A DNA stretch of 64,000 nt from a virus. The notes under the pieces are model-generated. The model worked only from the letters and a program-made list of their open reading frames with translations, made no database searches and was not told the DNA's origin. The stretch covers positions 1-64,000 of the IMG/VR virus record IMGVR_UViG_3300042520_000681, one strand, 5' to 3'. This document shows, piece after piece, positions 199-64,000 of the stretch. The translations under genes and the position numbers were made by a program. Position 1 is the stretch's first letter. The number at the start of each line of letters is the position of its first letter.

Positions 199-540
199 CA
201 CTAATGAGACTAGGGCAAGGTATACGCATGGCATCGCTTACCTACTTGTGTAAGTCCTTGGTCATCAAGATAACTTCTTATAACAGCACTAGAAGATAGT
301 GGAACCAATGCCATTGTTGCAAATGGCTTGCAAGTAAATTGCGCGAGGATGGCGCAGGAATCGTTTTTATTGTAAGGGAGGGTAAACCATGCGGGAGGAA
401 TTGCCCTGCATTCTACGGGGCGGGAAATGCGTTGCCTGTCTTGCGCCATGGTTCGCCAGTTCATTCCATGCCCTGCCCCTACCTTTCCCCTTCCCTCATT
501 TCATTTTGTTCAGAAATAAATGAACAAACAACCCCAAGAA
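199..540. other. gene-free stretch
   Basis: No reading frame here has convincing composition, a start site or a recognisable domain; the short open frames on both strands look random. No promoter or RNA could be recognised. It separates the microsatellites from the terminator of the leftward operon. Confidence 0.6.
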
Positions 541-541
541 A

Positions 542-569
542 AAGCGGGAGGATTTTCGCCCTCCCGCTT
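542..569 (-). terminator. rho-independent terminator of leftward operon
   Basis: Perfect 10-bp stem AAGCGGGAGG/CCTCCCGCTT with an 8-nt loop. Read leftward it is followed by CTTTTTCTT. It sits 22 nt past the stop of the 591-968 gene. Confidence 0.85.
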
Positions 570-58797: not shown

Positions 58798-58812
58798 TAT
58801 TGTTAAACAAGA
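58798..58812. promoter_or_regulatory. dispersed palindrome copy 11
   Basis: TATTGTTAAACAAGA, one mismatch, immediately upstream of the GT-B start codon. A bound protein here would cover the translation start region of the gene. Confidence 0.7.
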
Positions 58813-58879
58813 CTTGAAAGAATTCAATAGCATTTTTTCTTTCAAAAGATTTGACGCTCGTTGAAAATAGTGTATTGTA

Positions 58880-59400
58880 TTTTCATCTTTCTTGATTCAT
58901 CACAGGATTCGAGACAACAGTTTTCCTTCCCCGAAAATACCCGTCTTGATACTGTGATTATCAAGGCGGGTTTTTCGTTTAGCATGAAGCCTAACGGCAG
59001 TTCCCTAAAATGAGCCTAAAGATGAGCGTAGCACGGCAGGTTCTATCCCTGACTGCGGAACTACCTGAAAAGGACTCCCGTGTGAAGGAGAGGCGTTGGG
59101 AGGGTTAAAAGACTACCGACTTAATGCGTTCTGCCGAAAGGCTAGAAACTGCGAATCAAACTGGCTCTCGCCGCAAGGCGTAAACTAAAGTAAGGCTAGG
59201 CAAAGGACGACCTCTAGGCCGAGTGATTCATAAATGCATACGAACGGCTCCACGCGAGAAAGTGATATGTTGTTTAAGCAGTTTCCTAGAAGTAGGAACT
59301 GCTATGCCCGAAGCTCTCCATCAAGAAAGTGCTAGTTGAATAAACGAATAACCGATTAAATCCTGTTACAAAAATGTATCAATAATTGTAACACCAAGCT
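58880..59400 (+). ncRNA. candidate large structured RNA X
   Basis: About 520 nt with no credible coding. Hairpins include TCTTGA/TCGAGA (58890-58914), a terminator-like stem (58939-58971), GCC-GAAA-GGC (59133-59142), CGCC-GCAA-GGCG (59169-59180), a 10-bp bulged stem GCAGTTTCCTA/TAGGAACTGC (59278-59302) and TGTTACAA/TTGTAACA (59364-59393). GNRA loops point to a folded RNA. Its 5' part resembles RNA Y at 62277. It may be an ornate phage RNA or a long leader of the deaminase operon; the ends and strand are uncertain. Confidence 0.5.
58939..58976 (+). terminator. terminator-like hairpin in RNA X
   Basis: 13-bp stem ACCCGTCTTGATA/TATCAAGGCGGGT with one G-T pair and a 7-nt loop, followed by TTTTTCG. 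It may stop or attenuate a rightward transcript. It could also help to end the leftward tail operon. Confidence 0.6.
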
Positions 59401-59411
59401 AAAGTCTAAAC

Positions 59412-59801
59412 ATGAACTGGAACGAATACGCAATTAAGATTGCTGAAGTAGTCGCACTGAAATCTAAAGACCCGTGGAAGAAAGTTGGGTGTGTTCTGCT
59501 ACGACACGACAACTCTATTGCATCTGTAGGCTACAACGGCTTTCCTCCTAACGCAGAAGAAGACTGGAGCGATAGAGATAAACGCAGAGCATTCGTTATC
59601 CACGCAGAACAGAACGCTCTTAGGTATGTTAGGCCAAATGAATGCAGACTACTTGCCTGCACATTGCTCCCGTGCGGGAATTGTTTACGCATGGCGTCAT
59701 CGTATGGAATTAACGCCGTTGTTTACAAAGAGCATTACGACCACGATTCTTCAGCTATTGAAATAGCTGAAAGGTTCGGGATAAACCTTATTAAGCTGTA
59801 G
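59412..59801 (+). CDS. deoxycytidylate deaminase (129 aa)
   Basis: Zinc-binding motifs IHAEQNAL (about 63-70; His and catalytic Glu) and LPCGNC (about 87-92; two Cys) define the CMP/dCMP deaminase family. Converts dCMP to dUMP for dTTP synthesis. Length and motif order suit phage dCMP deaminases. Its 3' end overlaps a convergent gene by 11 nt. Confidence 0.88.
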   Translation: MNWNEYAIKIAEVVALKSKDPWKKVGCVLLRHDNSIASVGYNGFPPNAEEDWSDRDKRRAFVIHAEQNALRYVRPNECRLLACTLLPCGNCLRMASSYGINAVVYKEHYDHDSSAIEIAERFGINLIKL

Positions 59802-60237
59802 CTCCAATCCGATTGTATGAGCCTTGAAGATAAGACGGGGTGCTGATTCCCATCCCGCGATTTCTTTTCAATTTTTCAGCTTCGCTTCCAACGGATTTCT
59901 CTATTCCCATCGAGCCTTCAGGTTTGAATTTTTTACGAAATTCTTCAGTTCTGGCCTTGGCTTCATCCTTCATTGAGCCTCTTTCTGCCATTTTATCTCT
60001 AGGGCTTTTCTGCCCATTGTATGCATCTAGTGTAGAAGGACGCTTGCTAGGGAATGCAGGCTTGCGTTGAGTTGCTTTTGCCCCATATTTACCTGACTCG
60101 GACTCGTATCTTTCCATGTAATCCCCGTCACCCATATCTTCATCAATATACAAATCTGCACCTCTAGCTTCCCTTCTGGCATTAATTCTAGCCATTTGCT
60201 CTGGACTCCATCCGTGACTTCTTGGTTTTTGACCCAT
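59791..60237 (-). CDS. basic hypothetical protein (148 aa)
   Basis: A Lys/Arg/Gly-rich, low-complexity protein starting MGQKPRSHGWSPEQMARINA, probably disordered. Composition suggests DNA or RNA binding, or a virion protein. Convergent with the deaminase gene. The downstream partner of the 50-aa basic gene, 1 nt apart. Confidence 0.55.
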   Translation of the reverse strand: MGQKPRSHGWSPEQMARINARREARGADLYIDEDMGDGDYMERYESESGKYGAKATQRKPAFPSKRPSTLDAYNGQKSPRDKMAERGSMKDEAKARTEEFRKKFKPEGSMGIEKSVGSEAEKLKRNRGMGISTPSYLQGSYNRIGATA

Positions 60238-60238
60238 A

Positions 60239-60391
60239 TTAGTAATTTAGTTTTCCAAGTTGACTTGCTTTAACTTTTCCGGTTTCACGATTTTTCGTAA
60301 AAGCCTTCTTAGCCTTCTGCTGTTCTTTCGTGATCTTCTTTCCGTCTTTCGGTTGATCGTAGAAAGATTTTAATGAGTTGTATTTTTTCAT
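60239..60391 (-). CDS. small Lys-rich protein (50 aa)
   Basis: MKKYNSLKSFYDQPKDGKKI, then AFTKNRETGKVKASQL. Highly basic microprotein just upstream of another basic gene. The promoter of the opposite-strand gene at 60421 overlaps its start. Confidence 0.55.
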   Translation of the reverse strand: MKKYNSLKSFYDQPKDGKKITKEQQKAKKAFTKNRETGKVKASQLGKLNY

Positions 60392-60406
60392 CGCTTGCAA
60401 TATAAT
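60378..60406 (+). promoter_or_regulatory. sigma70-type promoter
   Basis: TTGTAT, 17-nt spacer, perfect TATAAT (60401-60406). Transcription would start near 60413, about 8 nt before the ATG at 60421, so the mRNA would be nearly leaderless. It drives the helicase operon. Confidence 0.7.
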
Positions 60407-60420
60407 AACAATATATTTTT

Positions 60421-60678
60421 ATGCGTAAAGATAAATTATTTGCATACTACCTGCAAAAGAACCCGTCACTCTTCACTCAACTAGAGAGCGGGAAGGTTAC
60501 GCTAACCGCATCTGGGTTCAGGAAGTTCTTTAATACAACCTACGATGCTGCCTACAAGCAGGGCTTCAGCCAGCTTCCAGATACAGAAGAAGCAGAATTG
60601 GATGAATGTGAAGAGCCGCGAGCATACGGTAATTCTGCTGCATTTAACGATCTGCTGAATATTTTCGGAATGAAGTAA
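60421..60678 (+). CDS. hypothetical protein (85 aa)
   Basis: MRKDKLFAYYLQKNPSLFTQ, then a helical remainder with an acidic segment (TEEAELDECEEPRAYG). First gene of the helicase operon, with a consensus promoter. No family recognised. Confidence 0.6.
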   Translation: MRKDKLFAYYLQKNPSLFTQLESGKVTLTASGFRKFFNTTYDAAYKQGFSQLPDTEEAELDECEEPRAYGNSAAFNDLLNIFGMK

Positions 60679-60726
60679 AATAGTCTTGACGATGGTTCGT
60701 GCGAGAATAAGATTTTTGGCTCGCAC

Positions 60727-61998
60727 ATGAAAAAAGAACTACCGCATGATCTAGATGCGGAGCATGGATTCCTATGCTCCTGCATGAACGAAAATAAGGT
60801 AATCGGGAAAACCGCAGATAGGGTAAACCTAGATTACTTCCACTTCGACGCCAACAAGCACATCTGGCAAGCAATGCTGGATATGTGGGTATCCAAGAAG
60901 CCAATTGACCTCCTGACTCTAACCTGTGAGTTGAGAGGCAAAGGCACACTGGATGAGGTCGGAGGAGAACAGCACATCACGAATGTCTATACATTTGTTC
61001 CATCCCATGTGAACTGGGATTCCTACTTGCACACGATGGAGGACTTGATGGTTCGCAGGAGAATCCTCAATACCTGTAAGAGGATTTTCTTGGATGCATT
61101 CGACAGGACGATTGATACCGAGACGCTACAGGCTTCCGCTAGTAAGGACATCACTGGAATGGTATCTACCAAGACGGAGGTAAGACTAGCTAAAGATGTT
61201 TTGTCTGCCTGCGTTAATCGGTGGGAAGAGGCCGCTAGAACTGGTGGCGAGATTAATCGGGGGCATCCATCAGGTATATCCAAGTGGGATATAGCAACGA
61301 GAGCATTCAGGCCCAAGACACTTCACATCATCGCTGGTGCAGCTAAAGCAGGAAAGACTACATCAGCTCTACAGATGGTTACAAATCCTGTAATCAAATG
61401 TAATGTCCCGATTGCGATTATCAGTATGGAAATGTCCGCTGAAGAGATCATGGACAAGCATATCGCCTCTATATCGCAGATTGCTCTATCTGACCTGCTA
61501 GACGGCAAGCTACGCAAGGAAGACCACGCTAGGCTCTCTAAGGCTATCTCTGAGACGATGAACAGACCGATCCATATCGTTGACGAGGCTTGCATGAATG
61601 TCAGCCAATTCAGGGCTAGATGCAGAAGGCTTGTCGTAGAGAACAAGGTTGAGATTATTATGGTGGACTATGCTCAGTTGATGGAAGGATCGAATGATCC
61701 CAAGAGCCGCGAGCGTGAGGTTGCCGAAGTATCTAGAACAGCAAAGATCGTCGCCAAGGAACTGAATGTATGTATTGTCCTTCTAGCGCAGCTAAACGAG
61801 AACGGGGCCGTCCGTGAATCAAGGACATTCTACATGGACTGCGATTCCTTCACTAAGATCATGCCAGACGAGGAAGGAGATAGTGGAGAGGATTACATAA
61901 TGCATATCACGCATAATCGGCATGGTGGGACATTCTCCATCCCGCTCCGCTTCATCAAGCATCAAGCTAGATTTGAACAGAAGATTGTTGAACAATAA
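60727..61998 (+). CDS. dnaB: DnaB-like replicative helicase (423 aa)
   Basis: The N-terminal domain (EHGFLCSCMNENKVIGKTAD, then YFHFDANKHIWQAMLDMW) matches the DnaB N-terminal helical fold. RecA-type domain: Walker A GAAKAGKTTSAL (about 201-212), Walker B IIMVDYAQLM (about 310-319), then a CIVLLAQLNENG motif III-type segment. It would unwind the fork, loaded by the initiator encoded at 12067. No primase domain is fused. Its stop codon is inside a palindrome copy. Confidence 0.88.
   Translation: MKKELPHDLDAEHGFLCSCMNENKVIGKTADRVNLDYFHFDANKHIWQAMLDMWVSKKPIDLLTLTCELRGKGTLDEVGGEQHITNVYTFVPSHVNWDSYLHTMEDLMVRRRILNTCKRIFLDAFDRTIDTETLQASASKDITGMVSTKTEVRLAKDVLSACVNRWEEAARTGGEINRGHPSGISKWDIATRAFRPKTLHIIAGAAKAGKTTSALQMVTNPVIKCNVPIAIISMEMSAEEIMDKHIASISQIALSDLLDGKLRKEDHARLSKAISETMNRPIHIVDEACMNVSQFRARCRRLVVENKVEIIMVDYAQLMEGSNDPKSREREVAEVSRTAKIVAKELNVCIVLLAQLNENGAVRESRTFYMDCDSFTKIMPDEEGDSGEDYIMHITHNRHGGTFSIPLRFIKHQARFEQKIVEQ
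61983..61997. promoter_or_regulatory. dispersed palindrome copy 12
   Basis: GATTGTTGAACAATA, one mismatch. It spans the helicase stop codon and ends 4 nt before the next start (62002). Confidence 0.7.
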
Positions 61999-62001
61999 CC
62001 C

Positions 62002-62253
62002 ATGAAAACAATACAAGAAAAAGTGGACGAACTAATCGGGGAGGATGAGTCAATCCTACTAGCTGACGGATTCGATTCTGCCTTCATAGGTGTAGCTAGG
62101 CAGTTCAATACTCCGTTTGCTGTTTATGACAGGGAACAATGCATTGAAATCCTAATGGAAAATATGTCTCACGAAGATGCGGAGGAATATTTCCAATACA
62201 ATGTTGAAGGCGCATATGTCGGTGAAAACACCCCAGCGTTTTTGATAAAATAA
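62002..62253 (+). CDS. conserved small phage protein (83 aa)
   Basis: DSAFIGVARQFNTPFAVYDR (about 25-44) and EDAEEYFQYNVEGAYVGENT (about 58-77) give a motif set that recurs in small phage proteins of unknown function, often near replication genes (from memory). It starts 3 nt after the helicase stop. Confidence 0.68.
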   Translation: MKTIQEKVDELIGEDESILLADGFDSAFIGVARQFNTPFAVYDREQCIEILMENMSHEDAEEYFQYNVEGAYVGENTPAFLIK

Positions 62254-62276
62254 ATTACGGTTTATTTTAAAAGAAT

Positions 62277-62870
62277 TTGATTATCAGCCATGCTGTGATA
62301 GTCTAAAAATATAAACACACCCGCTGTTCCTCTAGCACAGCAATGAACATTATGGGCGGGTTAGCTCTTTGAAACATTTTAGGTCTGGGGCGCAGGAGCC
62401 AACGGGATATTCAGTTATCCTGTGAATCTGATTGAATTCAGACAGACTAAATTTAGGATTATTCCGTGACAAATACTACCCATTATTTGTCACGAATAAA
62501 TCTGATTTTAGATTTGTCCGAACGGTTCGATGCATGTCTCCACGGCATGGGCAAAACCGCAGAGGATGAATCTTATTTTGATCGGCGGCGTGGAAGCCAC
62601 TTCCCAATGGGTTGTGCTGTAGCCAAGGGCTATAGAGACACGCAGGTAGAGGATGACGAACACCTCATTAAAAACGGCTATCGAACTAGCTAGGGTAGCG
62701 TCTAGCCCGATCAATAATTTTCAGCAGGTAGGTGTCTAATTACCTGATGAGCGAACTGCGTAGCGGAACGCCACATCGAACTGGGGGAACGCTGGGTCGT
62801 TCACAAGTTTGGCAACCCCCGCCTAAAAAGAGGATGCATACTCGTTCCTGCTGAATATCCTTTATTCAGT
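62277..62870 (+). ncRNA. candidate large structured RNA Y
   Basis: About 590 nt without a convincing gene. Its 5' part copies the order of RNA X: a TTGATT start, a hairpin (GATTATCA/TGATAGTC, 62279-62303), then a stem closed by ACCCGC/GCGGGT (62319-62361). Next come an 11-bp perfect stem CGTGACAAATA/TATTTGTCACG (62465-62494), a 9-bp closing stem TTCAGCAGG/CCTGCTGAA (62720-62855) and inside it GGGGG/CCCCC (62783-62820). A 75-codon GTG frame (62466-62693) crosses it but starts inside the perfect stem. The RNA class is unknown. Confidence 0.5.
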
Positions 62871-62899
62871 ATAAAATATAAATATACAAACTAACGCAT

Positions 62900-63046
62900 A
62901 TGAAACTAAAAAACAGCGAAGATAGAAAAGCCAGAATCAATCAGGTAAAATCTCAAACGACAGGAGCAGGGAAGGGCGATAGGCCAAGACCTGTGACAAG
63001 CAAGTATTGGGATAACTACGATTCCATTGACTGGAAGAAAAAATAA
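62900..63046 (+). CDS. small KGDRPRPV-motif protein (48 aa)
   Basis: MKLKNSEDRKARINQVKSQT, then GAGKGDRPRPV and a YWDNYDSIDWKKK end. From memory, short phage proteins with KGD.PRPV are widespread and of unknown function. Basic N-terminus. Confidence 0.65.
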   Translation: MKLKNSEDRKARINQVKSQTTGAGKGDRPRPVTSKYWDNYDSIDWKKK

Positions 63047-63071
63047 AACATAATAAATAAAGTTATAACAC

Positions 63072-64000
63072 ATGAAACATACATATCATATATTGGGGCT
63101 TCCACATACTGTTACATCTAAAGAGTTTAACGCTTGTGCATATACGCAAAAAGTCGTTAAGTTCGGAAAGATGATGACGGAGCGTGGACATGAAGTCATC
63201 CATTACGGACACGAAGATTCAGACTTGATCTGCACAGAGCATGTATCCGTCCTAACGAACGACGACTTCAAGAAGAGCTACGGATCGCACGACTGGCGCA
63301 AGACATTCTTCAAGTTCAATACGCAAGACCACGCATACCAGACATTCTACCGCAATGCGATTAAGGCTATCGGTCAGCGCAAGAAGAAGAATGACTTTAT
63401 CCTTCCATTCTGGGGCAGCGGAGTCAGGCCGATTTGTGACGCGCATAACGACATGATTGTTGTAGAGCCGGGAATCGGATATGCAGGAGGACACTGGGCA
63501 AGATGGAAGGTATGGGAGAGTTACGCGATTTATCATGCCTATTGTGGCTTGAAGAATGTTGGTCAGTGCAATCAAGATTGGTATGATGTTGTAATTCCTA
63601 ATTATTTCGATGAAGAAGACTTTGAATTTAACGATAAGAAAGAAGATTACTTTTTGTATCTTGGCAGGGTTTATTCAGGCAAAGGCGTTGATGTTGCGAT
63701 TCAAGCCACGGAAAAAGCAGGAGTTAAGCTTGTCATTGCAGGACAGAAAGAAGAAGGCTATAAATTGCCAGCGCATGTTGAATATGTCGGATATGCCGAC
63801 GTGGTAAAGCGCAAGAAATTGATGGCAAATGCGAAGGCTAGTTTTTTACCTTCCATGTATGTTGAGCCATTTGGAGGCGTCCAGATTGAGAACTTGCTTT
63901 GTGGAACTCCCACGATAACGACAGACTGGGGTAGCTTTGCAGAAAATAATTTGCATGGGATTACAGGCTATCGTTGCCGGACTATGGGTGACTTCGTAGA
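63072..64000 (+). CDS. GT4-like glycosyltransferase, partial
   Basis: Cut by the window edge after 309 codons. [20 protein letters not shown] (about 196-215) and [20 protein letters not shown] (about 262-281) with [14 protein letters not shown] are the donor-binding E-x7-E and Gly-rich motifs of GT-B/GT4 glycosyltransferases. The N-terminal half ([20 protein letters not shown]) holds the acceptor domain. Start 63072 follows an AT-rich leader. It may decorate fibres, capsid or host glycans. Confidence 0.82.

Follow-up and report, generated by a model that had tools for sequence, protein, structure and literature searches.

Two gene-free loci of an uncultured phage are predicted to encode structured RNAs, one as an array of modules behind a boxA-like signal

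Introduction

GOLLD and ROOL are large, ornate, phage-encoded RNAs, often found near transfer RNA (tRNA) genes, which assemble via kissing loops (PMC12286853), and the pRNA of phage phi29 also has complementary loops able to pair. Precedents for phage RNA decoys of defence systems are pseudo-ToxI (PMC3475682) and the RNA anti-CRISPRs, Racrs (PMC10651486). The abiF RNA (RF03085; e.g., RCd22 of C. difficile) is an RNA antitoxin of AbiF/Abi_2, type III-like in kind, that in C. difficile works in trans (PMC12373285), and AvcI RNA has been described as inhibiting a deaminase toxin (PMC10511110). Ribosomal RNA (rRNA) operons are subject to Nus-dependent antitermination (PMC10250234, PMC5725501). The present work concerns two gene-free gaps, locus X and locus Y, in the window, i.e., the whole stretch of 64,000 of the 68,094 bases of the uncultured virus record IMGVR_UViG_3300042520_000681 that was analysed. 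Both gaps would be loci of RNA genes that a group of uncultured tailed phages carries as accessory cassettes.

Results and Discussion

Evidence for structured RNAs in both gaps

The two gaps flank the genes for a dCMP deaminase (PF00383) and for a helicase of DnaB type (PF03796). The true bounds of the intergenic stretches are 58846-59411 (566 nt) at X and 62254 to about 62900 (~645 nt) at Y. Even under deliberately permissive calling of open reading frames, the two loci still contained the largest gap (426 nt) and two of the six largest, the median gap being 31 nt, so the oversized gene-free gaps described in an earlier sequence-only reading of this DNA hold up. The minimum free energies were below those of shuffled sequences for X (z = -3.1, 0/100) as well as for Y (z = -5.1, 0/20).

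The use of the helicase as bait yielded 21 related loci (57-99% identity), to which further loci were added for each element through DNA-pattern scans; several records in the sample are fragments. A single structure of 121 pairs is common to 19 aligned relatives of X (61-99% identity) and leaves 95.1% of cells paired; when the partners were shifted by one column, pairing fell to about 45%. Two-sided changes were counted in 122 cells of X vs. 36.5 +/- 5.2 in shuffles (0/500), and in 19 vs. 5.1 cells of module D, 51 vs. 20.4 of module C and 10 vs. 4.3 of module E (0/500 each), numbers to be read knowing that the covarying relatives share ancestry and that shuffle controls overstate their independence. 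On the plus strand, G-U cells greatly outnumbered A-C cells (177:24 in X, 37:14 in D, 27:12 in C and 59:9 in E). Because of the covariation and this excess of wobble pairs over mismatches, it is nearly certain, as judged from the sequences, that both gaps encode structured RNAs on the plus strand. Covariation across relatives, one of the checks proposed in the sequence-only reading, was thus found at both loci, and the claim of structured RNAs made there is strongly supported by X and by modules B, C, D and E.

Comparison with known RNA families

The Rfam scans, which cover described families, gave no match at gathering score in the window. Membership of GOLLD, ROOL, HEARO or OLE, for which the sequence-only reading had proposed a scan, found no backing, with none of them matched at E<=5 in 58800-63080. 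Neither the pRNA model nor any Rfam model of catalytic RNAs (group I/II introns, self-cleaving ribozymes) was matched, and ARAGORN and Rfam called no tRNA or transfer-messenger RNA in X or Y. X, with its ~440 nt, and Y, a string of small units, match GOLLD and ROOL in neither sequence nor structure, and X differs from phi29 pRNA in lying beside replication rather than packaging genes. With Racr and pseudo-ToxI the likeness lies in the proposed principle, a phage RNA mimicking the RNA partner of a host defence; the difference is that here many different modules occur per array.

Direct DNA relatives of X or Y were not found in cultured phages, except for one sub-domain in phage Danklef and, via a related locus (L018), module B. 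Genome scans for the host gave no matches to X; the single match to module E appeared to lie in a coding stretch and was rejected as chance.

Locus X

The features of locus X are:

58850..58879, plus strand: putative sigma70-type promoter of X (TTGACG / TATTGT)
58884-59325, plus strand: whole predicted X RNA, ~440 nt
58884..59024, plus strand: module I, the 5' head, closed by CATCTTT/AAAGATG; its pairs are counted in the alignment; z = -5.1
58899..58905, plus strand: kissing loop 1, ATCACAG; 7/7 pairs with two-sided changes
58952..58958, plus strand: kissing loop 2, CTGTGAT, at the tip of the 13-bp hairpin 58939-58971
59025..59325, plus strand: body of family X1, closed by GCGTAGCA/TGCTATGC and containing both GNRA hairpins

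In 22 of 23 loci, a TTGAC/TATnnT promoter was present upstream of CATC at constant spacing, which assigns the start of X roughly to the base with which the closing helix begins. X would be transcribed from its own promoter as a kissing-loop head followed by an exchangeable body.

The head, module I, consists of two hairpins with mutually complementary 7-nt loops. Among 19 distinct loops, the observed complementarity to the own partner was reached by none of 20,000 permutations, and every pair of the kissing helix changes on both sides. Such perfectly covarying loop-loop pairing would equally fit an intermolecular contact by which X, perhaps along with other modules, oligomerises into a ring or cage in the manner of phi29 pRNA, ROOL and GOLLD, the last two being phage RNAs that assemble by kissing loops. 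The loops of X are, however, ~46 nt apart in one closed domain, where an intramolecular kiss is simpler, and no Rfam match to ROOL, GOLLD or pRNA was obtained; a structural scaffold is unlikely. In an X-locus remnant with the body replaced by genes (L011), the head loops are unpaired, as expected once selection is lost, and loop 2 appears inverted.

Hairpin 2 (58939-58977) has in most members the form of a textbook intrinsic terminator, 13 bp followed by TTTTTC, and the X RNA runs on for 350 nt past it; this hairpin may serve as an attenuator, with the kissing loops in control of it. The T-tract in most members, together with the end of X just upstream of the dCMP deaminase start in L015/L016, would suit a cis-regulatory leader, i.e., a riboswitch or attenuator of the downstream gene with hairpin 2 as the switch. 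This role is very improbable, since X has both its immediate neighbours on the opposite strand in L039, L046, L049 and L054-L055 (the downstream one in L040), the T-tract is absent in L017, L022, L047 and L050 with the rest of X conserved, and the most conserved part of X is the body downstream of the "terminator". Because of the fixed promoter and the opposite-strand neighbours, X is, on comparative grounds, a free-standing RNA gene with its own promoter and not a 5' leader.

The position of X next to the deaminase gene in the window, L015-L017, L022 and L050, along with the AvcI precedent, speaks for X as the RNA antitoxin of this deaminase in an AvcID-like type III pair. Nevertheless, the deaminase gene lies 11-16 kb from X in three contigs (G024, G025, G029), occurs in contigs without X (G006, G016) and encodes a short, ordinary phage dCMP deaminase (PF00383, phrog_174). 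Pairing of X with the deaminase as a rule was rejected on account of these distant or X-less deaminase genes, and the antitoxin role is barely credible.

Both GNRA hairpins of the body that had been noticed in the sequence-only reading, GCC-GAAA-GGC (59133-59142) and CGCC-GCAA-GGCG (59169-59180), are real, being conserved with covarying stems in the 19 relatives. An alternative body, X2, with 39 of 87 pairs compensatory, was found behind the same module I head in L006, L009, L012, L111 and L112, and protein genes occupy the X site instead in L008, L010, L011, L020 and L021. In the latter five loci, as well as in L007 and L012, the site is taken up by a helix-turn-helix gene together with a gene resembling HNH or GIY-YIG, or else by X2 with an HNH gene behind it. 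The X site is an endonuclease-associated hotspot.

Locus Y

BLAST found no similarity between X and Y, hence their homology was rejected. The sequence-only reading had seen in the gaps two large, related RNAs; X is indeed a single ~440-nt RNA, but the two loci differ in kind and Y is made up of separate closed modules. The shared start, TTGATT followed by a hairpin and an ACCCG/CGGGT stem, is present at both loci, yet the likeness is superficial because the second hairpin of X is symmetric with a loop that pairs with hairpin 1, whereas the ACCCGC/GCGGGT hairpin of Y is asymmetric and stands before boxA. As far as the sequence can tell, Y is very probably an array of the self-closed modules J, H, A, B and C behind a boxA-like signal, rather than one RNA, with these features:

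62279-62855, plus strand: predicted Y array, with leader hairpins, the boxA-like signal, then J-H-A-B-C
62279..62303, plus strand: leader hairpin 1, seen in the sequence
62319..62361, plus strand: abiF-like asymmetric hairpin ACCCGC..CTCTAGCACAGCAAT..GCGGGT, directly 5' of the boxA-like signal
62364..62376, plus strand: boxA-like signal GCTCTTTGAAACA
62379..62450, plus strand: putative module J (TTAGGTCTG..CAGACTAA), z = -4.4; so far only in the window
62458..62501, plus strand: module H, a hairpin (CGTGACAAATA..TATTTGTCACG), z = -7.8; also in L005 and L032
62510..62573, plus strand: module A, with seven relatives and compensatory AT/GC changes in the outer and inner stems
62578..62714, plus strand: module B, P1-CG-GCGUGGAA..GACACGC-variable domain-P3 (RGUAGCGY loop)-P1'
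62649..62682, plus strand: optional sub-domain within B (GAGG-AUGACGAACA-CCUC-AUUAAAAACGGCUAUC), also in L065
62720..62855, plus strand: module C, 14 members, 15 of 30 pairs with two-sided changes

Turnover of the modules

The composition of the arrays varied between the phages, from A+C (L004), B+C (L010), H+A+C (L005), B+D+C (L018), A+E+D (L021) and E+F+C (L035) to J+H+A+B+C in the window; modules D, E and F belong to arrays of other phages, outside the set of the window. All modules lie on the same strand, each bounded by a closing stem of its own, and the A/T linkers between modules (e.g., AAACAATTT) have AACAAT-type repeats in common. The array is absent in L006, L008, L009 and L011, where the helicase stop (AACAATAA) joins directly to the downstream AATTTACTGATCGG; the latter comes after a boxA-like ATCTTTGAACAATTT in L007, L013 and L014. 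The gain, loss and reordering of modules as units, with close relatives devoid of the whole array, are strongly supported by these sequence comparisons. A common gene-free sequence (ATTATCCCCGGCnACnGCTCTGnCCGAC..ACCGATCCCGAATTnACGGGTGA) beside array modules in L036 (5173-5346, minus strand) and L115 (~400-545, minus strand) is probably another module type.

Clean insertion and deletion of units bounded by inverted repeats, with repeats in the linkers, might also be expected of DNA-level elements, i.e., palindromes like miniature inverted-repeat transposable elements, repetitive extragenic palindromes or attC sites that move as cassettes without RNA function. The single orientation of the modules, always behind boxA, the G-U wobble with few A-C pairs on the plus strand, and the internal covarying helices with a loop-loop contact leave this explanation with hardly any probability.

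The boxA-like signal

A boxA-like site was present within 35 nt of the first module at 19 of the 26 scored sites, of which one (L078) is a chance hit, vs. a background of 0.66%. An independent occurrence is the boxA beside module B in the cultured Pseudomonas phage PotUPM1. Judged by its sequence, the signal probably functions as boxA. As a diagnostic, boxA alone was rejected: an IMG/VR scan returned 38 stretches, six of them known arrays and 32 new ones that were chance-like, unrelated and mostly coding.

The array resembles the boxB-boxA leader of rRNA operons and boxA-led transcripts in the hairpin, the boxA-like CTTTGAA, the A/T linker, the stem-closed stable RNAs and, sometimes, a tRNA downstream, such as tRNA-Cys after the arrays of L035 and L026. 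It differs from them in that its products are of no known kind and that boxA varies and is missing from some arrays.

The abiF link and the proposed function

Six contigs (G013, G024, G031, G033, G034, G035) matched the Rfam abiF RNA, RF03085, with 43-44.5 bits (gathering score 37 bits); the matches directly follow module D or form a tandem pair next to X. The canonical abiF RNA ends the arrays of L020, L026, L065, L074 and G033 and adjoins X in L039. In L039/L114, two abiF RNA motifs follow one another with 13 nt between them; they and X are on opposite strands, and a T-tract ends the pair. No Abi_2 (PF07751) gene was found in the 26 records searched, several of them fragments, nor in the L039/L114 contig, and an RNA antitoxin beside its toxin gene, the arrangement of type III/AbiF systems, was not seen in these records.

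The hairpin of the window (62319-62361) shares with abiF RNA the asymmetric two-stem design and the CTCT..AAT loop; abiF RNA is a single hairpin, and the other array modules are unrelated folds. A post hoc descriptor, written after both groups had been seen, had no matches in shuffles and, across 1.08 Mb of loci, none other than canonical abiF RNAs and these leader hairpins. Because the two leader types aligned poorly with each other, a common model for them was dropped. The abiF likeness of the window hairpin is a lead from sequence, concerning its architecture only and not membership of the family.

We propose that Y transcripts, probably from the upstream helicase operon, pass the hairpin and then the boxA-like site, where host Nus factors would prevent RNA polymerase from leaving the untranslated RNA and assist in the folding of this RNA. 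The transcript would yield the separate self-closed RNAs J, H, A, B and C, acting in trans on host factors. Host toxins or defence enzymes under RNA control might be neutralised when these RNAs mimic or decoy the RNA partners, in the way that the orphan abiF RNAs at the same positions in related phages might neutralise host AbiF. Antitermination, release or processing of the modules, trans action and counter-defence are all inferred. Counter-defence seems the most economical function, since a known activity exists for abiF RNA and for no other module, RNA decoys of defence systems are established in phages and the loci turn over in an arms-race-like manner; taken by itself, it is possible but somewhat doubtful. 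The structure and the modularity are observed; the likeliest reading, at about even odds, is that these are cassettes built like rRNA operons, whose RNAs act in trans and are probably decoys of host defences or antitoxins against them.

Several observations weigh against this proposal, besides the shared ancestry of the covarying relatives. The X body alone folded only weakly better than shuffles (z = -1.1), its support being comparative. Seven of the 26 scored sites had no boxA-like site, and that of the window (GCTCTTTGAAA) has one mismatch to GYTCTTTAANA, the gammaproteobacterial consensus. The window hairpin did not match RF03085 at E<=10. Fragments make up several of the records searched for Abi_2. 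Finally, as canonical abiF RNAs double as intrinsic terminators, they could have been kept as terminators.

At least eight covarying RNA families outside Rfam (module I, X1, X2, A, B, C, D and E) occur in this one phage group, and we found no precedent for heterogeneous RNA modules behind a boxA-like site, shuffled like cassettes. We put forward, tentatively, that X and Y are two loci of a previously undescribed class of elements, rRNA-operon-like arrays of interchangeable self-closed RNAs serving as a multi-target counter-defence kit, with module B widespread. The orphan abiF RNAs at the same sites suggest a concrete, testable function; if counter-defence holds true, the other modules would be baits for RNA-regulated defence systems.

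Module B in cultured phages

A Blast search with L018 revealed module B in cultured phages: the Ochrobactrum phage POI1126, between tRNA-Met and tRNA-Gln; the Pseudomonas phage PotUPM1, behind a boxA-like GAGCTCTTTGACC; and the Pseudomonas phages Orimi01, Orisa01-03 and Persinger, the last with a module of ~85 nt and its own terminator. All copies have the form P1-CG-GCGUGGAA..GACACGC..P3(RGUAGCGY)-P1', with P1 of nearly any sequence. In eight members, with the interiors cut out by hand and the P1 ends set by position relative to the conserved blocks, 10 of 18 pairs changed on both sides (21 vs. 5.0 cells, 0/500; covariation score 0.48 vs. 0.12). Sequence comparison indicates that module B forms a broader class with members in cultured phages of Pseudomonas and Ochrobactrum, and these phages make it testable in laboratory strains. 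It was not found in the plasmids and E. coli searched. Six of eight matches in a scan with the B pattern (L057-L062) were rejected as chance, since they look coding and lack other modules.

The tRNA genes flanking module B in POI1126, the tRNA-Cys after two arrays and the leader similar to that of rRNA operons also suit RNAs for takeover of translation or of the host, stable like the extra RNAs of phage tRNA clusters and targeting ribosomes, tRNAs or RNA polymerase. We consider such RNAs rather unlikely, given that Rfam and ARAGORN showed no rRNA, tRNA or 6S similarity in the window and that the fast gain, loss and mixing of modules is more arms-race-like than housekeeping. The preferred reading remains that of counter-defence cassettes.

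In the Polaribacter phage Danklef (L003 3000-3034), a gap free of genes contains the ATGACGAACA..TTAAAAAACGGCTATC sub-domain of B by itself, with an AUGG/CCAU stem. A 22-nt match to B in Microviridae fell within a VP1 feature. Directly upstream of B, in L121 (Orimi01, ~1300-1455) and L122 (phiAH14a, ~985-1085), there is a tRNA-like RNA with a GGGTTCGAATCCC-type T-arm, enclosed in a perfect stem of ~19-20 bp and called by neither ARAGORN nor Rfam. In L121 (1493-1966), module B is overlapped by the annotated hypothetical protein Orimi01_00061, which is probably a misannotated RNA gene.

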